From: a virus
Reading direction: 5' to 3' (one strand)
Virus record (IMG/VR): IMGVR_UViG_3300025168_000700
Location: 1-23,312 of that record
DNA: 23,312 nucleotides
Shown here: positions 12,575-22,383 of the stretch, in pieces
How the letters are laid out: each line of letters begins with the position of its first letter
How positions within the stretch are numbered: the first letter of the stretch is position 1
Made by a program: the position numbers and the translations under genes
The notes under the pieces: model-generated
The model's input: only the letters and a program-made list of their open reading frames with translations
Told to the model about the DNA's origin: nothing
Database searches by the model: none

Positions 12575-13164
12575 TATTTACTCTCTTTCTTTTTGTGCTG
12601 CTCTATCTTATCATCTAACCAAGCGATAGCTTTAATACAATTCTGTTCGTAGAAATCGCTTTGTGCTTTTCTCTTAATTGTAATGTTCCACTCCTCTTGC
12701 GTGATTGCTCCAACTTTTTTAGCTAAGTCGTTCTTAGTTTCAAGTTCTTTAAATTGTTTGAAGCTTGGTGGATCTTGAAAAGGCAAATCCTCGCCTTGAT
12801 AGATATATAGTCCTAATCCAAACAAAGCAAAACATTTGACTAAACATCTAAGAATTGAGCTATTAACGTCAAAAGCATTTGGCTTTGGTATTGCTTTCAT
12901 ATAATGACTTAATATAGGGTGCGTGTGCGTTCTTGTAATTCCCTCTATCGTAACACTTACTTTTACGAAAGCACCTGCGTCTGTTTGTTTATAAGGTGAT
13001 CCATCGTCAAACTCGTGAATATCCCACGTAGTATCTGGATATTTCTTCAATACGATAGCAACTGCGTCACTCCACGATAGATAATCATAATCGCCTTTTT
13101 TATCTTTAAACTCATTGGCATTATAGCTAAACAAGTCATCAAATACACTCATCTCCTTACTCAT
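12574..13164 (-). CDS. Single-strand annealing protein, DUF1071/Sak3 type
   Basis: A 196-residue protein that would anneal complementary single strands in phage recombination. It shows the family's hallmarks in order: Tyr-Leu-Ser-Trp near residue 29, a Trp-Asp-Ile strand, a Gly-Ala-Phe-Val-x-Val-Ser-Val-Thr-Ile hairpin, the Asn-Ala-Phe-Asp-Val-Asn-Ser segment, then Arg-Cys-Leu-Val-Lys-Cys-Phe-Ala-Leu and Gly-Leu-Gly-Leu-Tyr-Ile-Tyr-Gln-Gly-Glu-Asp-Leu. The C-terminal 60 residues are charged and helical. The start at 13164 is fixed by the ATGA overlap with the HTH gene; a longer frame to 13209 lies inside that gene. It is likely to work with the SbcD-like and resolvase-like nucleases downstream. 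Confidence 0.8.
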   Translation of the reverse strand: MSKEMSVFDDLFSYNANEFKDKKGDYDYLSWSDAVAIVLKKYPDTTWDIHEFDDGSPYKQTDAGAFVKVSVTIEGITRTHTHPILSHYMKAIPKPNAFDVNSSILRCLVKCFALFGLGLYIYQGEDLPFQDPPSFKQFKELETKNDLAKKVGAITQEEWNITIKRKAQSDFYEQNCIKAIAWLDDKIEQHKKKESK

Positions 13165-13367
13165 AATTCCCCCCATAATTCTACCATTGTTGCACCTGTT
13201 ACTTGACATATAGCTAACTTTTGTGTGTGTGGTATTTTATTTTCTCTCTTCCAAGTAGAGATTGTCATTGGCGATATTTCAAGTCTTCGTGCAATCCACG
13301 CTTGACTTCTTTCATTAATATTAAGCCATATATTCAATCCATAAAACTGATCTTCATTATTATTCAT
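13161..13367 (-). CDS. Small Cro-like HTH regulator
   Basis: A 68-residue protein. The start at 13367 has GGGAGG 8 bases upstream and an ATGA overlap with the gene before. Residues about 20-45 read as helix-turn-helix: Ser-Gln-Ala-Trp-Ile-Ala-Arg-Arg-Leu, turn, then Ser-Pro-Met-Thr-Ile-Ser-Thr-Trp-Lys as recognition helix, as in small Cro/YdaS-type proteins. It is the only small Cro-like regulator I see in this operon, so it is the first candidate to bind the repeats and dyads around the promoter at 14252-14280. That link is inference. Confidence 0.68.
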   Translation of the reverse strand: MNNNEDQFYGLNIWLNINERSQAWIARRLEISPMTISTWKRENKIPHTQKLAICQVTGATMVELWGEL

Positions 13368-13558
13368 TTGTCCTCCCATTTGGTTTCTATTGCCAAGCTA
13401 CAAATTTGTTGGCGTGTTAAATAAGTTTGTGTCCGATAATCAAAAAAGTTCCTATCAGAATTGTCTTGATTCTCCAAATAATACATCTCTGCAATATTAT
13501 TAAGCCTAAGATGTAGTATCATACTATTAATCTGTTTATCTGTATATTCTTTACTCAT
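13364..13558 (-). CDS. Hypothetical protein
   Basis: A 64-residue polar protein with a start at 13558 supported by GAGGAGG and an ATGA overlap with the preceding gene. It is Asn/Gln/Tyr-rich, with a helical N-terminal half and a C-terminal Leu-Thr-Arg-Gln-Gln-Ile-Cys-Ser helix that could bind nucleic acid. No family recognised. Confidence 0.55.
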   Translation of the reverse strand: MSKEYTDKQINSMILHLRLNNIAEMYYLENQDNSDRNFFDYRTQTYLTRQQICSLAIETKWEDK

Positions 13559-13976: not shown

Positions 13977-14009
13977 TGTTTTCCTTTCCTTGTTTGTTTA
14001 TAATAAATT

Positions 14010-14076
14010 TATAGAGGTAACTATTATTTGATTTAACTGATAGGTAAATGAAGCATAAGATCTAGCTACCTCTATA
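14010..14076 (-). promoter_or_regulatory. Long inverted repeat in the early leader
   Basis: TATAGAGGTA (14010-14019) and TACCTCTATA (14067-14076) are perfect complements. After one mismatch the stem continues with CTA/TAG (14021-14023, 14063-14065). The 39-base loop contains a further ATTTA/TAAAT pair. On the minus strand it forms the end of the leader about 35 bases before the first gene. It could be an RNA switch or stability stem, or an operator pair bridged by a looping repressor. Confidence 0.5.
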
Positions 14077-14178
14077 GTATAATTTTTTGTCTTGTTTGTA
14101 ATATAATTCATAAACCTTGTATGTACATAATAACTATTATAATTAGATATAACTAATAAATTCTTCATATTTCGTAAA

Positions 14179-14244
14179 ATAATATAAAATACCCTCTAGA
14201 ATATAATATAATACCCTGTGAGATATAATATAATATACTAGTAT
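14179..14244 (-). repeat. Three imperfect 22-bp tandem repeats just downstream of the early promoter
   Basis: Units at 14179-14200, 14201-14222 and 14223-14244 share an ATATAATATAAT-like block. In the first two a TACCCT box follows, and in the third it has decayed. Together they cover about +1 to +66 of the predicted leftward transcript. Twenty-two bp is two helical turns, so bound proteins would align on one face. Operator array or AT-rich origin element are both possible. Confidence 0.45.
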
Positions 14245-14251
14245 AAATATA

Positions 14252-14280
14252 ATTATAGTGTTAATTTATAGTCCTTTCAA
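14252..14280 (-). promoter_or_regulatory. Early leftward sigma-70 promoter
   Basis: On the minus strand TTGAAA (14280-14275), a 17-bp spacer and a perfect TATAAT (14257-14252). It sits between an intrinsic terminator at 14325-14355 and the long gapless operon starting at 13976, which is where the main early promoter is expected. The transcript would start near 14245. Confidence 0.7.
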
Positions 14281-14285
14281 TGATT

Positions 14286-14302
14286 AATGGATCTAATCCA
14301 TT
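14286..14302. promoter_or_regulatory. Dyad immediately upstream of the early promoter
   Basis: AATGGAT-cta-ATCCATT, 7-bp arms with a 3-bp spacer, lies 5 bp upstream of the -35 box. Six Ts follow on the plus strand (14301-14306, the first two within the arm), so it could also be a weak rightward terminator. Its position fits an activator or repressor site. Confidence 0.4.
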
Positions 14303-14324
14303 TTTTCATAACCTTGTTTGTTAG

Positions 14325-14355
14325 AAAAAAGCCACTTTAACTAGTGGCTTTTTTT
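14325..14355 (-). terminator. Intrinsic terminator (symmetrical, can act both ways)
   Basis: A GCCACT/AGTGGC stem with a 6-base loop is flanked by A6 on one side and T7 on the other, so both strands give a stem plus U run. It begins right at the stop of the 69-residue gene (14354) and insulates the early promoter from the gene block to the right. Confidence 0.85.
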
Positions 14356-14563
14356 ATTGATAGTATCTTTTGTTATATCTTTCTTCAAGTTTTTCCCAAA
14401 CAACAGAAAATCTTTGTAACCATTTATATTGTTCTTGATTTTTATAATTTCCACAAAATTGACTGTCCAAAGCACACATACTTTCCAAGCCATTTTTATT
14501 ATAAAAATTATCTAGTATTTCACACATATAGTCCATTAAATCAAACTTATTATCTTTGCTCAT
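14354..14563 (-). CDS. Hypothetical orphan protein
   Basis: A 69-residue protein, helical, with many Asn, Tyr and Lys and three Cys. It starts at 14563 after AAGGAAACTATAAAATG, the spacer shared by several genes here, and its stop lies in the terminator T run. It has Met-Cys and Phe-Cys-Gly-Asn segments but no regular metal site. No family recognised. It is the last gene of a four-gene unit (15257 to 14354). Confidence 0.6.
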   Translation of the reverse strand: MSKDNKFDLMDYMCEILDNFYNKNGLESMCALDSQFCGNYKNQEQYKWLQRFSVVWEKLEERYNKRYYQ

Positions 14564-14575
14564 TTTATAGTTTCC

Positions 14576-14800
14576 TTATGTTGTTATTTTATATAAATCA
14601 TCATCTATTTTTTCAACATTAGTTGTATTTATATCAATAACGAAATATAAATCATCTAAATTTTTATCATTATTTATTGAATTGATATAAAAACATTGAT
14701 TAGTATTATTTTGATTTTCAATTACTAAACTATTATTATGTCTATATATAGTTAGTTTTATCTCATTATTTTCATTTTCTTTAATTTGTATATCTTTCAT
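14576..14800 (-). CDS. Hypothetical Asn/Ile-rich orphan protein
   Basis: A 74-residue beta-prone protein of extreme composition (Asn, Ile, Asp, Lys). Alternating hydrophobic residues suggest a small beta sandwich or sheet. GAGGG precedes the shared TATAAAATG start context. Codons are almost all A/T-ending. No family recognised, and the AT bias makes homology hard to see. Confidence 0.58.
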   Translation of the reverse strand: MKDIQIKENENNEIKLTIYRHNNSLVIENQNNTNQCFYINSINNDKNLDDLYFVIDINTTNVEKIDDDLYKITT

Positions 14801-14824
14801 TTTATAGCCCTCGTGTTGTTATTA

Positions 14825-15049
14825 TTATAATGTTAATTCATTTATTTGTTCATCTAATAGTTGTTTTATATCTAGTAATACATCTAATTCAAAAACATCT
14901 CTTATTAAATATTTAGTATTGAATATACTATTTATTAAATATTGTCCTTTGTCAGTTATATTATTTTGATCATCAAAAATTGGTAAACCCTCTAAAAAGT
15001 TTAAAGATTTTTGATTTTTAATTAACTCCCTATATTCATCTTTTTTCAT
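14825..15049 (-). CDS. Hypothetical helical orphan protein
   Basis: A 74-residue, Leu/Ile/Asp-rich, mostly helical protein. It begins after the same AAGGAAACTATAAAATG spacer as the gene at 14563. The Leu-spaced C-terminal half (Phe-Glu-Leu-Asp-Val-Leu-Leu-Asp-Ile-Lys) suggests a coiled coil or helical hairpin. No family recognised. Confidence 0.58.
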   Translation of the reverse strand: MKKDEYRELIKNQKSLNFLEGLPIFDDQNNITDKGQYLINSIFNTKYLIRDVFELDVLLDIKQLLDEQINELTL

Positions 15050-15077
15050 TTTATAGTTTCCTTATTGTTTGTTATTA

Positions 15078-15257
15078 TTATATAATTCCATTTTCTTTAA
15101 ATTCATCAAGTAAACCAAACTTTTTACCAAAATATAAAAAGTGTTCAGATATAATAATTAATTCATCTAAACTAAAATTATTATTACTTATTATACTTTG
15201 CGTGTTTATTGCTTGATCTATTGCTTGTTTTTTTGTTTTTGGTATTGTTAGTTTCAT
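15078..15257 (-). CDS. Hypothetical 59-residue orphan protein
   Basis: ATG at 15257, preceded by AAGGGG and the shared TATAAAATG context. Stop TAA at 15078. The product starts Met-Lys-Leu-Thr-Ile-Pro-Lys-Thr-Lys-Lys, then has an Asn/Ser stretch and a helical C-terminus with Phe-Leu-Tyr-Phe-Gly-Lys-Lys-Phe. It fills what would otherwise be a 300-base hole between genes with the same spacing, which supports it as a real gene. It is the first gene after the terminator at 15316-15350, and two TATAAT-like boxes lie upstream. Confidence 0.6.
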   Translation of the reverse strand: MKLTIPKTKKQAIDQAINTQSIISNNNFSLDELIIISEHFLYFGKKFGLLDEFKENGII

Positions 15258-15315
15258 TTTATACCCCTTGTTTATTATTATAACATTATTATTATAATTC
15301 TTTTAATTCTTGTAT

Positions 15316-15350
15316 AAAAAAAGCTACCTATTTATTATAAGTAGCTTTTT
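15316..15350 (-). terminator. Intrinsic terminator after the 66-residue gene
   Basis: AAAAAGCTAC (ending 15327) pairs with GTAGCTTTTT (15341-15350). The A and T tracts extend the GC-containing stem, so it works on either strand. It lies just after the stop of the leftward gene ending at 15355. Confidence 0.75.
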
Positions 15351-15354
15351 ATTA

Positions 15355-15555
15355 TTATTTATTCATTTTAATATAATCTGATCCATTAAATACATATTTA
15401 TCTTCTTCTTCAATATGTTTATTATATTTTTTAATGAATTTTTTTAGATCTTCATATAGTTCATAATCTAGCGTTTTAATATGAATTGGCAGTAAATCAA
15501 CCTCACAACCAACACCAACCATATTTATACTAAATGTTGTAAATTCGTCCTTCAT
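15355..15555 (-). CDS. Hypothetical orphan protein
   Basis: A 66-residue protein with a beta-prone N-terminal half (Phe-Thr-Thr-Phe-Ser-Ile-Asn-Met-Val-Gly-Val-Gly) and a charged helical C-terminal half. AAGGAAACTAATAAAATG precedes the start, one base longer than the common spacer. It is directly followed by a terminator. No family recognised. Confidence 0.57.
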   Translation of the reverse strand: MKDEFTTFSINMVGVGCEVDLLPIHIKTLDYELYEDLKKFIKKYNKHIEEEDKYVFNGSDYIKMNK

Positions 15556-15581
15556 TTTATTAGTTTCCTTATTGTTTATTA

Positions 15582-15809
15582 TTATATAAATAGATCATTA
15601 GTATTTATTATTTCAATATCTCTAATTAATAAATAATTATTCCTATTATCTTTTATTGTAGGATTTACTCCATTACTTTTTGCGTGGTTATATTTATTAA
15701 TCATTTGGCTATAATGTTTTCTAATTTCATTATAATCCAAATTATCATTTTCAAAAAATATAAAAGATTTACTTTTATTTTGCGTGGTTACTTTAACTGC
15801 GTATTTCAT
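15582..15809 (-). CDS. Hypothetical orphan protein
   Basis: A 75-residue protein beginning Met-Lys-Tyr-Ala-Val-Lys-Val-Thr-Thr, a beta start, followed by a Phe-Ile-Phe-Phe-Glu strand and a helix with Tyr-Asn-Glu-Ile-Arg-Lys-His-Tyr. AAAGGG and the shared TATAAAATG lie before it. Only 25 bases separate its ATG from the terminator at 15835-15866, leaving no room for a normal promoter, so it is probably expressed by read-through. Confidence 0.57.
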   Translation of the reverse strand: MKYAVKVTTQNKSKSFIFFENDNLDYNEIRKHYSQMINKYNHAKSNGVNPTIKDNRNNYLLIRDIEIINTNDLFI

Positions 15810-15834
15810 TTTATAGCCCTTTATTTGTTAAGTT

Positions 15835-15866
15835 AAAAAAGCCCCTAAATTAATAAGGGCTTTTTT
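15835..15866 (-). terminator. Intrinsic terminator after the 125-residue gene
   Basis: AAAAAAGCCC and GGGCTTTTTT pair over 10 bp around a loop of about 12 bases, ending in T6 on either strand. It follows the stop of the leftward gene at 15872. Confidence 0.78.
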
Positions 15867-15871
15867 ATTGG

Positions 15872-16249
15872 TTATATTAAATCAAGATCTTGTTTTAATT
15901 TCATATCCAAAACCATATAAGACATAAAATTGAAATAATTATTAGTTATTTTGTCTTTTGTCTTTTGGTTTGGATCTTCTTCAATAGATCCCATTTTTAC
16001 TGCTAAATCTATAACATCTTCATTATAAAATGGAAGATTAATAACACTTGGAAGACCAGATAACCAATAAGAAAATGAATTTTGAAAATGGTCTGTTTTG
16101 TTATTAAACCCAGATTCTTTTTTAAATGTATCAATTAAGTAGTTTAGTTTTTGATCTTCTTTTATTGGTTGATCTTCTTCGTATGGTTTGATACTATCTA
16201 AAATAAATATAGAATAGTTTTTTTTGTATTTGGTGTGGTGTAGTTTCAT
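15872..16249 (-). CDS. Hypothetical protein of the Tyr-Trp-Leu-x-Gly-Leu-Pro-Ser type
   Basis: A 125-residue protein with a conserved-looking core, Ser-Tyr-Trp-Leu-Ser-Gly-Leu-Pro-Ser at about 60-68 followed by Ile-Asn-Leu-Pro-Phe-Tyr-Asn. I recall this pattern in unassigned proteins of aquatic phages and plasmids (recollection, unchecked). The N-terminus is basic and the rest is helical. The start at 16249 overlaps the stop of the 40-residue membrane protein as ATGA, with AGAGG as ribosome site. Function unknown. Confidence 0.6.
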   Translation of the reverse strand: MKLHHTKYKKNYSIFILDSIKPYEEDQPIKEDQKLNYLIDTFKKESGFNNKTDHFQNSFSYWLSGLPSVINLPFYNEDVIDLAVKMGSIEEDPNQKTKDKITNNYFNFMSYMVLDMKLKQDLDLI

Positions 16250-16368
16250 TTTTTAACCTCTTTTTGTTTGTTATGTTGTTTTAATTGTTCTTTGATTGTC
16301 AAGATCCATAGTAATACAATGATGAAGACAATGTAGAACAAAGTAAAATTTAGTATTTGATCAATCAT
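16246..16368 (-). CDS. 40-residue single-span membrane protein
   Basis: ATG at 16368, stop TGA at 16246-16248 overlapping the next start. Residues 5-23 are strongly hydrophobic (Ile-Leu-Asn-Phe-Thr-Leu-Phe-Tyr-Ile-Val-Phe-Ile-Ile-Val-Leu-Leu-Trp), followed by a lysine- and glutamine-rich tail. This is an N-out or signal-anchor topology with a cytoplasmic basic tail. It lies 1 base after the stop of another small membrane protein. Candidate roles are pinholin or holin component, superinfection exclusion, or membrane tether; none is proven. Confidence 0.55.
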   Translation of the reverse strand: MIDQILNFTLFYIVFIIVLLWILTIKEQLKQHNKQKEVKK

Positions 16369-16876: not shown

Positions 16877-17058
16877 TTTGTAACCCTTTTAATTGTTATC
16901 AATAAAAACAAGTTAAGCCTTTTTCTTCAATAGTCAATGATTTATTTATATTTTGTATATGTTATCCTTATGTATGCTTAGTGGCTATACCTTAGCAACC
17001 CACCCTTACCACTTTTAAACGTCCAACCCTAAAGCTATATGATCTTAATTGGCTTGTA

Positions 17059-17083: not shown

Positions 17084-17172
17084 AGCAGTAGATCATAGAA
17101 ATATTATTTTTTCTTTGATGATTGATCATATTTTACCCCCCCTAGAAGTGCATTAAACTAAAGGTAGGTTTG

Positions 17173-17240
17173 GTATTAGTATTACTTGCGAGGTAGCAGT
17201 AAACGACTATTGCTAGGTATAAATAGTAATAATTTAATAC
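17173..17240 (+). ncRNA. Hairpin 1 with conserved loop GTAAACGACTA
   Basis: GTATTA (17173-17178) pairs with TAATAC (17235-17240), and TATTACT (17180-17186) with AGTAATA (17225-17231), separated by a small internal loop. An inner stem TAGCA/TGCTA (17194-17198, 17211-17215) closes a loop that starts GTAAACGACTA (17199-17209). It lies upstream of the rightward small-terminase operon. It could be a leader RNA structure or a DNA site. Confidence 0.45.
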
Positions 17241-17263
17241 TCTATATATAAGAATCAAGATTT

Positions 17264-17311
17264 AAAAATATCTCTGTAAACGACTAATATTGCTAGAGAT
17301 AGGGATATTTT
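17264..17311 (+). ncRNA. Hairpin 2 with the same loop GTAAACGACTA
   Basis: TATCTCT (17269-17275) pairs with AGAGATA (17295-17301), and flanking A and T tracts (17264-17268, 17308-17311) can extend the stem. The loop again starts with GTAAACGACTA (17276-17286), and TTGCTAG follows after a 3-base insertion relative to hairpin 1. Stem sequences differ completely from hairpin 1 while the loop is kept, which is the mark of a selected structure. Confidence 0.45.
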
Positions 17312-17346: not shown

Positions 17347-17365
17347 ACCAATCCAAGAAATTGGT
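17347..17365. promoter_or_regulatory. Dyad upstream of the rightward operon
   Basis: ACCAAT (17347-17352) and ATTGGT (17360-17365) form an inverted repeat with a 7-bp spacer, ending 35 bases before the first rightward gene. No convincing -35/-10 pair was found beside it. An operator or small hairpin is possible. Confidence 0.3.
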
Positions 17366-17400
17366 GGTATTTTATTAATATTTACCCCTAAATTGTGTGT

Positions 17401-17604
17401 ATGCCAACATACGATTATAAATGTTTAGAGTGTGATAAAGTGTTTGAACACATACAAGAAATGAGTGAGCCAGACCTGGAAGAATGCTTATGCAAGAAAG
17501 AAAAGTTCCTAGTAAAGAGAATGATCTCAGCTCCAACTTTTGTCATTAACACTAAAAGTTCAATGACAGATACGAAATTATACAAAGAATTAGATATAGA
17601 TTAG
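17401..17604 (+). CDS. FmdB-like zinc-ribbon protein
   Basis: A 67-residue protein. The start Met-Pro-Thr-Tyr-Asp-Tyr-Lys-Cys is the standard beginning of FmdB-type zinc ribbons, so the ATG at 17401 is preferred to an in-frame GTG two codons upstream. Cysteines at 8, 11, 29 and 31 form the metal site (Cys-x2-Cys ... Cys-x-Cys), and the segment Phe-Glu-His follows the first pair as in the family. No ribosome site is visible, so the message may be leaderless or the structure upstream may matter. It heads the rightward terminase operon. A regulatory or nucleic-acid role is inferred. Confidence 0.75.
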   Translation: MPTYDYKCLECDKVFEHIQEMSEPDLEECLCKKEKFLVKRMISAPTFVINTKSSMTDTKLYKELDID

Positions 17605-18209: not shown

Positions 18210-18343
18210 AGAATGTAAAGCGACAAGAACGACGCTCCAATGGAGCAAAAAAAACTCGACAAGGTAATAGCAAAAACACAAAGCGTGGTACAAAGCTATC
18301 TACCAAATACTATAAGAAAAAATACAGAGGACAAGGAAGATGA
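18206..18343 (+). CDS. 45-residue Arg/Lys-rich protein
   Basis: ATG 18206 to TGA 18343, with ATGA overlaps at both ends. About 40 percent of residues are Lys or Arg, with Ser, Asn, Gly and Tyr between, and no hydrophobic core. It looks like an intrinsically disordered nucleic-acid-binding tail, similar in composition to a ribosomal protein extension or protamine-like peptide. GAAGAAG before the start may serve as a weak ribosome site. Function unknown. Confidence 0.5.
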   Translation: MKNVKRQERRSNGAKKTRQGNSKNTKRGTKLSTKYYKKKYRGQGR

Positions 18344-19011
18344 GTAATATAGAATTGAAAAAAGCCAATCAAATGGCTGCTATTGACTTATTGATTAATA
18401 ATCCAGAGCTAAACAAAACCGAACTAGCCAACGAGTTAAGTATGACACCTCAAACAATACATAACTGGTTTTCAGATGATAGATTTATTGAGATGTATTA
18501 TAAGAAGTATATGATTTCATTTAACGCAAAGCTACCTATGGTATTAAATAGTATGGTACGAGAAGCAGTTGAGGGAAATGTCCAGGCAGGGCGACTAGTA
18601 TTAGAGCATTCTGGTAAGCTAGTTAAGAATATCAATGTAACCGTAGATAGTCCATTCGAAAAATTTTTAAAAGCAACTGAAATAGACGCCGTAGAGGTTA
18701 TTGATGTGGAAACCGAAGAAGTAAAGGGAGCTTTAGAAACCCTTCCGAAAAGAAATCCCACAAACGACAAACCTTTAAAAAGAAAACAAGATGAAAAGAA
18801 AGCAGTAGCTAGTATAAAAAAAGGTAAGAAACCTTATAGGCAAAAACGTAGAGAGGATAGAGCAGATAGATATGCGTTATTGCAACGAGCTAAGAAAGTT
18901 GAGTTAGATCCATTACCTGCAAAGCGTCCTACAAATAACGAAAGAAGAAAGTGGCTGGAAGAATTAATCGAGAGGGAAGAATCTATGAAATCCCAAACTC
19001 GTCAGGCATAA
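18340..19011 (+). CDS. terS: Terminase small subunit
   Basis: A 223-residue protein. Residues 25-48 form a helix-turn-helix (Asn-Lys-Thr-Glu-Leu-Ala ... Met-Thr-Pro-Gln-Thr-Ile-His-Asn-Trp-Phe). The segment at 66-92 (Leu-Asn-Ser-Met-Val-Arg-Glu-Ala ... Ala-Gly-Arg-Leu-Val-Leu-Glu-His-Ser-Gly-Lys) is typical of phage small terminase oligomerisation helices. After an acidic linker (about 112-130), the C-terminal 85 residues are strongly basic. Small terminases bind the packaging site and hand DNA to the large subunit. AAGGA precedes the start. The gene points against the large terminase, and its end overlaps a convergent gene by 29 bases. Confidence 0.7.
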   Translation: MSNIELKKANQMAAIDLLINNPELNKTELANELSMTPQTIHNWFSDDRFIEMYYKKYMISFNAKLPMVLNSMVREAVEGNVQAGRLVLEHSGKLVKNINVTVDSPFEKFLKATEIDAVEVIDVETEEVKGALETLPKRNPTNDKPLKRKQDEKKAVASIKKGKKPYRQKRREDRADRYALLQRAKKVELDPLPAKRPTNNERRKWLEELIEREESMKSQTRQA

Positions 19012-19204
19012 TATCGTATTTTTCAAACATCTCAGACATCTCTAAAGAAGTCGTCATAAACTCATCAATATTAATATAGTCTTTTTCTACTGAATCGTTT
19101 GAAGATATTTTTTGGCATATAAAACCGAGAAGCTCGTTATTGGCTTTTGAAACCTCACGAAGCTCTTTTATCATTTTAAATATTTCTTTTATTATACTAT
19201 TCAT
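18983..19204 (-). CDS. Hypothetical helical protein
   Basis: A 73-residue protein, Lys/Glu/Met-rich with a helical N-terminal half and an acidic C-terminus. It starts with a TAATG overlap onto the end of the morphogenesis gene and runs 29 bases into the 3' end of the convergent small terminase gene. Its position as last gene of the terminase-portal unit suggests a small head or neck accessory factor, but nothing in its sequence proves it. Confidence 0.52.
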   Translation of the reverse strand: MNSIIKEIFKMIKELREVSKANNELLGFICQKISSNDSVEKDYINIDEFMTTSLEMSEMFEKYDIMPDEFGIS

Positions 19205-19737
19205 TACTTTGAACTTATTTTTTTACCAATATTTTTAAGACTGGTGCGTAATTTTTCTTTAAATTTATTTAAAAAATTCTTATCTAGGCTCAAAGATGAA
19301 ATTTTAGATAACACCAACTCTCTTACTTCTGCGTTACTAGAAAAAAACCATTTACGCTGAACATTGTTTTTATATTGTCCAGTTACACCTAAATGATAAT
19401 GTCCGTATTTTACATTTGATCCTACTTTTGCTGAAACTTTAGACATATTTGTTTTAACAGCAGATTTGCTATCTATGGATTTTTTTAAATTTCCTTTGCC
19501 TATCATAAAGTCTGTAGCCATACCAGATTCTTTTTTTATTCTAAGCCACTTAGACTTAGGTGTATAGCTAATAAACTTATTTCCTTGTATATCTTGTTGT
19601 TTTTTAAATGTGTCAGAAGATTGCTTTCTAGCTTCTTCTGCTAAAGGAGCTAAGACTTCAAGCACTATCATTTTTTTTAGTTTTGTTTTTTTTAATTTAT
19701 TAAAATCAAAATTAATCTTGTTCTGCATTGAAATCAT
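19204..19737 (-). CDS. Virion morphogenesis / tail-completion protein (Mu gpG-like)
   Basis: A 177-residue basic protein. The start at 19737 has GAGGTGA 9 bases upstream, inside the end of the portal gene, with which it overlaps by 26 bases. Its middle reads Val-Lys-Tyr-Gly-His-Tyr-His-Leu-Gly-Val-Thr-Gly, then Gln-Arg-Lys-Trp-Phe-Phe-Ser-Ser, the pattern of phage morphogenesis proteins where a Tyr-x-x-x-His motif precedes an Arg-x-Phe segment. Such proteins complete the neck or tail end. It is separated from the other tail genes and lies in the inverted terminase-portal unit. Confidence 0.62.
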   Translation of the reverse strand: MISMQNKINFDFNKLKKTKLKKMIVLEVLAPLAEEARKQSSDTFKKQQDIQGNKFISYTPKSKWLRIKKESGMATDFMIGKGNLKKSIDSKSAVKTNMSKVSAKVGSNVKYGHYHLGVTGQYKNNVQRKWFFSSNAEVRELVLSKISSLSLDKNFLNKFKEKLRTSLKNIGKKISSK

Positions 19738-21052
19738 TTTCAATCACCTCAACTGGTTCAAGTTTTTCAACTGGCTGAACTGGCAACGATATACCATTGA
19801 CATCTCTATTTTCTTCAATGATTTTTTGTGCTTCTTCCACACTTAAATCTTTATTTTCTTCTGCCATTATTTTTGCTTCAGTAGTTAAATTGTGTTTCAA
19901 CTTATATTCACTTAGCATAATCTTATCTTGAGCAGTCATAGGATATTCGACTTCAGAGAAATCGACTTTGAAACGCTTAGGATCTGGTAACCCTAAATTA
20001 TTAGATAGAGATAAAGCATACTCTACTTTATAGAAATCTTTTTCATACTGACGATATAATTCTTTATCGTCCATAAAATCTTCGTGGCGTTCTAAGTCTT
20101 TAATCATTAGCGATATACCACTAGGTACTTCTCCACCCGATTGTGCGAAGGTAACAAATAGATGATTATTTAACGCCACTAATTCTATTTGCCATTTAAT
20201 GTTCTCAATAACATCTCTTACATTTCCTTGTGGAGCAACAATATTATAGTTACTTCCTTCTGGCAAAGTTAAAATTTCATCTGAACCTGCTCTAACATTA
20301 CTATTGTCAGAAATGATTCCAGTTACAACTGGCTGTCCAAACATTTGGAAGCGTAGCCCTAATTGCATTTCAGTCATTGTAATATTAATATGCTCATTAG
20401 CAGATACTAAATCTGTAGCTCCTTCAACAAAGAAAGAATCTAATTGTTCTTCTCTATGGCTAAACACAAAAGGTAATACACCTAAGTTATGTTCTATTTC
20501 CTCAAAGACATCTCCGTTATCATCAAACTTGATACATCTTTCTGAATCCCAGTAAGCATATTGTAATTGTTGGGTATCTCCAATTTCTGCGTGTCCGTGC
20601 ATCATTGGATAAACAATAGCTTCTGGCTTATAAGGGTTGTCGCCAAAATAAGGTTCAAAATAATAGATAGAACGATAATCAAATTTTTCTGATTCTTCAT
20701 CATACATAACATAAGTAGCACAAGTACCAATTAGTCTTGTCATTCGTTCCATTTGTTTCATACGAGCATTCTTATTTTCAGTTAGCTCATCATATCTCTT
20801 GGTTACATTTCTCTTAGCACCAATCGTGTATATCTTGGACATACGATTAACAAATTTTTTCACAATATTAGTATTGTAATGAGGAATTTCTTGGAATGCG
20901 TCAGACTTGAAATAATCTTCTATGTACTGGTGTGTTAATGATCCAGAATAATAATCTAATGATTTTCTAACTTCTTCCCTTCTAGCTTTCGCTTGTTCTT
21001 CTTTGAAGTGAGTTAATGAATCCTGTATAATCTCTTGTGGTGTAAAAATCAT
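19712..21052 (-). CDS. Portal protein
   Basis: A 446-residue protein. It follows the large terminase by 11 bases, the usual order for a head-gate module. The N-terminal half is helical and charged, then comes an aromatic, Pro-containing region (Tyr-Phe-Glu-Pro-Tyr-Phe) and the conserved-looking Asn-Leu-Gly-Val-Leu-Pro-Phe-Val-Phe. The centre has Glu-His-Ile-Asn-Ile-Thr ... Ser-Gly-Gly-Glu-Val-Pro-Ser-Gly, and a long helical stem and acidic C-terminal tail follow. This fits SPP1 gp6-type portals, which form the dodecameric DNA gate. AGGAAA precedes the start. Length fits the family. Confidence 0.82.
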   Translation of the reverse strand: MIFTPQEIIQDSLTHFKEEQAKARREEVRKSLDYYSGSLTHQYIEDYFKSDAFQEIPHYNTNIVKKFVNRMSKIYTIGAKRNVTKRYDELTENKNARMKQMERMTRLIGTCATYVMYDEESEKFDYRSIYYFEPYFGDNPYKPEAIVYPMMHGHAEIGDTQQLQYAYWDSERCIKFDDNGDVFEEIEHNLGVLPFVFSHREEQLDSFFVEGATDLVSANEHINITMTEMQLGLRFQMFGQPVVTGIISDNSNVRAGSDEILTLPEGSNYNIVAPQGNVRDVIENIKWQIELVALNNHLFVTFAQSGGEVPSGISLMIKDLERHEDFMDDKELYRQYEKDFYKVEYALSLSNNLGLPDPKRFKVDFSEVEYPMTAQDKIMLSEYKLKHNLTTEAKIMAEENKDLSVEEAQKIIEENRDVNGISLPVQPVEKLEPVEVIENDFNAEQD

Positions 21053-21063
21053 TTGTTTTCCTA

Positions 21064-22383
21064 TTATCGTGATATTCTTCCAATGAAGTTACTTCTAATT
21101 GGAAACCTATTCAATATAAAATATCTAAAAGCATCACAGCCGTGTTCGTTGTATCCATCTTTGATAGGATTGTTAGAAATCGGCTTACCTTCTTGAGCTT
21201 CTGGGAATCTGTAATTCTCAAAATCCTCTGCAATCCCTACACATCTATTATCTACTTTAATTCGTCTTAGTCCGTCTACATTTTCAAAGAACCCACGACA
21301 ATAACTAACACCACCTTGTATATTACGAGATAGTTTGTCCATACGATACTCTACATAAATTCCGTGCTTTCTAAATACGTGAATATCTCCCATTCCAGAT
21401 TGTCCTTGAACGAAACTACCAGCAGGATCGCCGTAGTAAGTAATCACAGGATAATTCTTTTTCTTAATCATTTCTGCTAACTTATCAGTTGCAATATTTC
21501 TTTCGTGAATTATCTCATCTATAATATTAATATGTGGATTACCATTTTCTATATAGGTTTGAAACCACAATACTGATGGCATACGATAACCAAAGTCCAT
21601 TGAACAATATGTTGGCAACTCTGGATTATATGGAACATTACCCATATCTCTTTCTCTATCAAATGGATATACTCGTCCTTCCATTGAAGTAAACTTCGCA
21701 GCAAACTCCTGGTCAAATAACTCTTTGGACATATTACGCTTTCGTTCCAATAAGAACTTATCGTTTTCTCCTTCTGGGAATGCGTGTTCGTTTTCCCAAC
21801 TAGGAGATTGTACACTATACCATTGTTCATCGCTTTGTCCTAATAAGAATAAATCATAAATCCAATTAAACCCTTCAGGCGTAGTAATAAAAATAGCTTT
21901 CCCTTTTCTGTCAATTAGAGTAGGAGATAAATACATATCCCAAATTTTTCTTTGCATCTTTGCTGCTTCATCAATAATTAATAAATCCACACCTTCCCCA
22001 ACTAATGAATCTGGATTCTCACAAGACATACCTTCTACTGTTGTTCCCCATTTGAACTTAATATATTGTTCTTTTTCTGAAGCTCTATCAATATCGTGTC
22101 CTTTACCAGCTACCATATCTTTCCAAATTTCACGAAACATTAATCGTGATTTCTTGTAGGATAAGCCAACTAGCCAGATTTTTTTATTAGGTTGTGCAGC
22201 GTAAAACTCTGCTTCTCGATACGCAGCTGTAGTTTTTCCATATCTTCTACCACAGATATTTACGAAGTAAGATGCAGTTGGCTTCTCAGGGAAATGCAAC
22301 TTTCGCTGTCCTGCGTGTGGCACATAATTCATATAATCGAACCATTGCTGCTTGAAATCAAACTCTTTTAATTTTTTTGACAT
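21064..22383 (-). CDS. terL: Terminase large subunit (ATPase and nuclease)
   Basis: A 439-residue DNA packaging motor. Walker A is Gly-Arg-Arg-Tyr-Gly-Lys-Thr-Thr at residues 45-52. Walker B is Leu-Leu-Ile-Ile-Asp-Glu at 134-139. The coupling motif is Ile-Thr-Thr-Pro soon after. The C-terminal RNase H-like nuclease shows Met-Asp-Phe-Gly-Tyr near 265, Gly-Asp-Pro-Ala-Gly-Ser near 313 and a late Asp417 in Gly-Cys-Asp-Ala-Phe-Arg, all acidic positions being present. The gene is transcribed leftward while the small subunit gene is rightward and about 2 kb away. No strong ribosome site precedes the ATG at 22383. Confidence 0.93.
   Translation of the reverse strand: MSKKLKEFDFKQQWFDYMNYVPHAGQRKLHFPEKPTASYFVNICGRRYGKTTAAYREAEFYAAQPNKKIWLVGLSYKKSRLMFREIWKDMVAGKGHDIDRASEKEQYIKFKWGTTVEGMSCENPDSLVGEGVDLLIIDEAAKMQRKIWDMYLSPTLIDRKGKAIFITTPEGFNWIYDLFLLGQSDEQWYSVQSPSWENEHAFPEGENDKFLLERKRNMSKELFDQEFAAKFTSMEGRVYPFDRERDMGNVPYNPELPTYCSMDFGYRMPSVLWFQTYIENGNPHINIIDEIIHERNIATDKLAEMIKKKNYPVITYYGDPAGSFVQGQSGMGDIHVFRKHGIYVEYRMDKLSRNIQGGVSYCRGFFENVDGLRRIKVDNRCVGIAEDFENYRFPEAQEGKPISNNPIKDGYNEHGCDAFRYFILNRFPIRSNFIGRISR

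Follow-up and report, generated by a model that had tools for sequence, protein, structure and literature searches.

To our knowledge, the terminase recognition site has been mapped for no more than a handful of phages, all of them cultured. In phage lambda, cosB has the order R3 – I1/IHF – R2 – R1, in which an IHF bend lies between the TerS repeats R3 and R2, and a spacing-critical segment, the spacer I2, strongly conserved among lambda-like phages, leads to cosN (PMC4856287). The pacL and pacR sequences of SPP1 share no identity with each other, and the pac site of P22 lies inside terS (PMC4856287, PMC9611059). The literature on P1 pac yielded nothing usable for comparison.

The locus described here lies in a window of 23.3 kb (the whole stretch of DNA analysed, which is the entire IMG/VR record). 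It resembles lambda cos in its direct repeats, placed on both sides of a putative IHF-type bend and upstream of terS, in a stretch of fixed length leading to a GC-containing block, and in a TerS with an N-terminal helix-turn-helix (HTH). Several differences with respect to lambda could also be seen: only two repeats were found and their sequence is unrelated, an FmdB-like gene and others are placed between the element and terS, fixed cohesive ends have no support, and the stretch before the GC block is constant in length but has 12 freely varying nucleotides, unlike I2. As in SPP1 pac and other headful sites, several candidate contact points lie within the terS region or beside it, and permuted genomes would fit the circular maps seen among the ~34 kb relatives; in contrast to pacL and pacR, the two sites share sequence identity.

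The phages of the group to which the window belongs have genomes of ~34.2 kb and lack close relatives in GenBank: among the GenBank phages searched, TerS and the FmdB-like protein had no match and TerL reached ~31% at best. A TerS search returned 80 loci, to which DNA patterns contributed more, and 59 distinct elements were extracted from these loci, 57 of them being aligned (alignment A1, 57 rows). No prophage or host was found in the GTDB genomes searched, and a Sak-based search for left-side contigs gave one distant match only. One record, IMGVR_UViG_3300030102_002442 (L336 and L340), has 51.4 kb, against the ~34.2 kb of the group, carries the DnaD-like gene twice and may be either a concatemer or a chimeric assembly. 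In the window itself, G+C drops to 21% over ~2 kb of small leftward genes (14001–16250), compared with ~33% elsewhere.

Arrangement and distribution of the conserved element

The two copies of GTAAACGACTA to which the initial annotation had drawn attention are exact (17199–17209 and 17276–17286) and, as reported, 77 nt apart from start to start. No third copy with one mismatch or fewer is present in the window, that is, in the whole record. Taken from the window alone the repeat does not exceed chance, with three exact 11-mer repeats within 120 nt compared with 0–4 in 40 shuffles; its conservation was established by comparison alone (A1 and the 59 extracted site pairs), and the proposal that the 11-mer common to both loops is under selection finds support. 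The sequence TTGCTAG, said to follow both copies, directly follows the first and is placed after ATA at the second, and this tail is not conserved in relatives.

The pattern of conservation indicates that the conserved unit is a double-stranded DNA element of roughly 150 bp and not an RNA or a cruciform. Its parts appear in the order CCCC or GGGG tract, RRGNGNAT, TCCTTGC, RTWAAYGACTA, AT-rich 21-mer, AATCAA and GTAAACGAC[TG]A. The tract (17136–17142, no strand assigned; C in the window) contains the position S4 (17138–17141), placed at a fixed distance in the ungapped conservation anchored at TCCTTGC, where CCCC is seen in some relatives, GGGG in others and A/T rarely (21–26 C and 16–20 G of 49 at offsets −45 to −42). 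The RRGNGNAT block (17146–17153, + strand; AAGTGCAT in the window) lies a fixed 30–37 nt before TCCTTGC, with G at −35 in 42/49, G at −33 in 44/49 and A at −31 in 43/49. It is followed by about 12 unconserved positions of fixed length (−28 to −17), conservation resuming at −16 in the same ungapped frame. Continuous conservation starts on the left at about the TCCTTGC block (17183–17189, + strand; TACTTGC in the window), and TCCTTGCAAA precedes repeat 1 in the conserved order.

Repeat site 1 (17199–17209, + strand; consensus RTWAAYGACTA) forms the loop of the first reported hairpin and is separated from the core by a variable spacer, the core being found 16–30 nt after the start of the repeat. 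The near-invariant AT-rich 21-mer TAAATAGTAATAATTTAATAC (17220–17240, no strand assigned) encloses the invariant 13-mer core TAATAATTTAATA (17227–17239). AATCAA (17253–17258, + strand) is also near-invariant and IHF-like (WATCAANNNNTTR with one mismatch); such matches are common by chance (88 in the window, 76.5 expected) and this match alone is not significant. Repeat site 2 (17276–17286, + strand; GTAAACGAC[TG]A), the loop of the second reported hairpin, begins exactly 49 nt from the core start in 59/59 elements, and the repeat copies are 65–79 nt apart (n = 59). In a few TerS relatives (L004, L056, L058 and L060) the second site is degenerate. The locus L063, which lacks the element, was set aside: its upstream sequence matches nothing else compared, and the contig is possibly chimeric. 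Many relatives also carry a C-rich block (GCAACCCACCC at 16995–17005 in the window, CAACCTTACGCCC and similar in relatives) in an AT-rich gap some 200 nt before the element, possibly part of a leftward early promoter or operator.

An exact 25-base pattern representing the core-ATCAA-TAAAYGAC arrangement was searched in IMG/VR and GTDB; it matched 70 IMG/VR records (uncultured viruses) and none of the 84,980 GTDB prokaryote genomes. The arrangement is unique in each genome and intergenic. The first gene after it is the FmdB-like gene in 70/70 records, starting 168–184 nt past the core; each of the 62 records of sufficient length has terS further on. In the window these genes are placed at 17401–17604 (+ strand; FmdB-like zinc-ribbon protein, ATG start, a GTG at 17395 being also possible) and at 18340–19011 (+ strand; small terminase with N-terminal HTH, assigned by the PHROG terminase small subunit and PF13022), the latter 1.1 kb downstream of the repeats. 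The predicted TerS model is closest to 2AO9, a protein of prophage phBC6A51 (moderate confidence, pLDDT 65). The position of the element is constant while the left-hand genes change (no close relative of the window's Sak occurs in the group), and it stays before fmdB-terS in both orientations of the terL-portal module. In relatives, the motif also matches within terS and ~223 nt ahead of it; these matches fall in coding frames (VNDYI, NPVNDKP) and were set aside.

A candidate docking site for the terminase

The position and architecture of the element (unique, rigid, AT-rich, flanked by repeats and close to terS) resemble those of lambda cosB, and because of this resemblance we tentatively favour its interpretation as a terminase recognition site, at which the phage DNA packaging machine would dock. 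Of the three functions offered by the initial annotation, this is the leading explanation; a replication signal remains as a rival and a tandem leader RNA is disfavoured (see below). We infer that the two GTAAACGACTA copies would be direct repeats bound by a phage protein, with TerS the most likely candidate, and that the AT-rich segment with AATCAA between them would be bent, probably by IHF, bringing the sites together. Docking of TerS on both repeats would then position TerL on the concatemer and packaging would start. The participation of IHF, weak as a sequence match, is suggested by the invariance and the place of AATCAA. This interpretation is in agreement with the retention of both repeats in 59 relatives, the second at its constant distance from the AT core, and with a TerS that has the expected DNA-binding HTH and a phage protein as fold relative. 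Against it stand the two repeats found here, compared with three in lambda, and the linkage to terS, which fits operon regulation equally well. No co-variation of the repeats with the TerS recognition helix was visible by eye in the range compared.

The C/G tract together with RRGNGNAT, at their fixed distance, is a candidate cleavage or contact site. Since CCCC and GGGG interchange at one fixed position between relatives, what defines this block might be the strength of its base pairs rather than its sequence, read at a constant distance from a bent, repeat-anchored TerS; we regard this proposal as doubtful. If the terminase interpretation is true, comparison alone has sufficed to place the site of an uncultured group with single-base precision, and 70 natural variants of the element are ready for a direct binding test.

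A closer inspection of the contig ends bears on the kind of packaging. Right-hand contig starts scatter over the variable stretch upstream of the element with no pile-up at one nucleotide, and none of the 15 early-gene-side records inspected ends inside the element. Starts near the C-rich block at ~16995–17005 (L008, L012, L018 and L213) were considered as proof of cos and rejected, as they differ in their exact nucleotide and none of the left-side contigs stops at this place. A fixed-distance GC block is present as a candidate counterpart of cosN, with no clustering of contig ends at it. Fixed cohesive (cos) ends are not supported by the contig ends, and because no contig ends at a fixed terminus, headful (pac) use of the site fits better than cos. 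Three ~34 kb records open at three different places, and in one of them (G003) an end overlap of 127 bp corresponds to a circular map opened away from the element; circular maps opened elsewhere would fit headful packaging if this DNA came from virions.

Alternative roles of the locus

The repeats could instead be operators of the rightward fmdB-terS operon, recognized by a phage regulator such as the FmdB-like or a CI/Cro-like protein, with the AT/AATCAA stretch bent by IHF or similar and the promoter nearer the gene. We consider this unlikely, although several features point to it. The element invariably comes immediately before this operon, the window encodes a CI-like HTH protein (13161–13379), and between the element and the ATG there are a TAAATTG hexamer-like stretch and a further conserved block, AATCCNA...GGTATTTTATTNNTATTT (17350–17383, + strand; the only copy in the window), also given as AATCC..GGTATTTTATT. 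This block is likely the promoter/activator region of the operon, and its presence, distinct and placed between the element and the gene, suggests that the element is not the core promoter. In addition, the repeat arrangement occurs once per genome and is absent from other late operons, no promoter-like or terminator-like excess was found in the region, and the conserved parts extend, rigidly spaced, to ~260 nt upstream of the ATG, all of which weigh against operators. The TAAATTG-N5-ATG stretch directly before the FmdB-like gene (17389–17403) is conserved and has no clear ribosome-binding site; TAAATTG is possibly the −10 element of a leaderless message, and upstream of it some relatives have an 11-nt insertion that others lack.

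Iteron origins of phages and plasmids combine direct repeats, AT-rich DNA and a possible bending protein site, features also found at this locus. At such an origin the repeats would be initiator sites beside an AT-rich unwinding element, where the early leftward genes meet the late rightward ones. The invariant core, made only of A and T and placed beside direct repeats, fits this idea, as do the cumulative GC-skew trend, which levels off and turns near 16–17 kb, and the lack of iterons inside the DnaD-like initiator gene. However, iteron origins have three or more closely spaced repeats, whereas only two copies, 65–79 nt apart and not in tandem, are present here. The region has no DnaA-box match, the skew turns where the genes switch strand, and the element stays with terS and not with the initiator gene, so that we judge an origin improbable.

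The initial annotation had placed the two 11-mers in the loops of two hairpins with unrelated stems, compatible with a tandem leader RNA presenting the same loop twice. The stems do exist as letters in the window: TAGCA (17194–17198) with TGCTA (17211–17215) as the inner stem of hairpin 1, 17173–17178/17235–17240 plus 17180–17186/17225–17231 (6 + 7 bp) as its outer stem, and TATCTCT (17269–17275) with AGAGATA (17295–17301) in hairpin 2. Both hairpins fold in the window itself, but the 181-nt region folds no better than expected by chance when the window is taken alone (z = −1.27; 22 of 200 shuffles equally good), and comparison gave no conserved pairing. RNAalifold predicted zero base pairs on A1 (57 rows). 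Among 56 relatives, all pairs were kept in none for the inner stem of hairpin 1, in one for the stem of hairpin 2, and in four and three for the two parts of the outer stem, whose left arm lies in a varying stretch and whose right arm belongs to the near-invariant 21-mer. Covariation in the stem pair counts was no better than in slid controls. Across 48 relatives the folding of the region matched that of shuffled sequence (mean z +0.16), the window being among the better folders by chance, and Rfam gave nothing credible at gathering and permissive thresholds, with no family above threshold. The conserved pairing with compensatory change that marks a structured cis-acting RNA was not seen.

The hairpin reading was rejected because the relatives show no consensus fold, covariation or folding excess, and a leader RNA is highly improbable since neither stems nor fold are conserved. 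Different stems around a kept loop had been taken as a sign of selection on structure plus loop; this was mistaken, because two protein-binding sites in DNA likewise give a kept 11-mer with differing flanks. Stems varying randomly in homologues, named beforehand as the outcome that would speak against the reading, are what was found for the stems. The reported hairpins are chance folds around conserved DNA sites, a trap into which hairpins convincing in one genome may lead.

A phage attachment site is the least probable role, despite the resemblance of direct repeats around an IHF-like site to the integrase arm sites plus IHF of attP, where direct repeats likewise surround an IHF site, since no integrase gene was found (no tyrosine recombinase in 14 records searched, no serine recombinase in 5, four of them ~34 kb) and prokaryote genomes hold no copy of the element.

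Beyond terS, the terL-portal-neck module (19204–22383) points the opposite way to terS in the window, as in most relatives, and is on the terS strand in 7 of 78 TerS rows (L044, L308, L309, L049, L108, L062 and L079). On the TerS tree its orientation has changed at least twice, so the packaging and head module has been turned round repeatedly.
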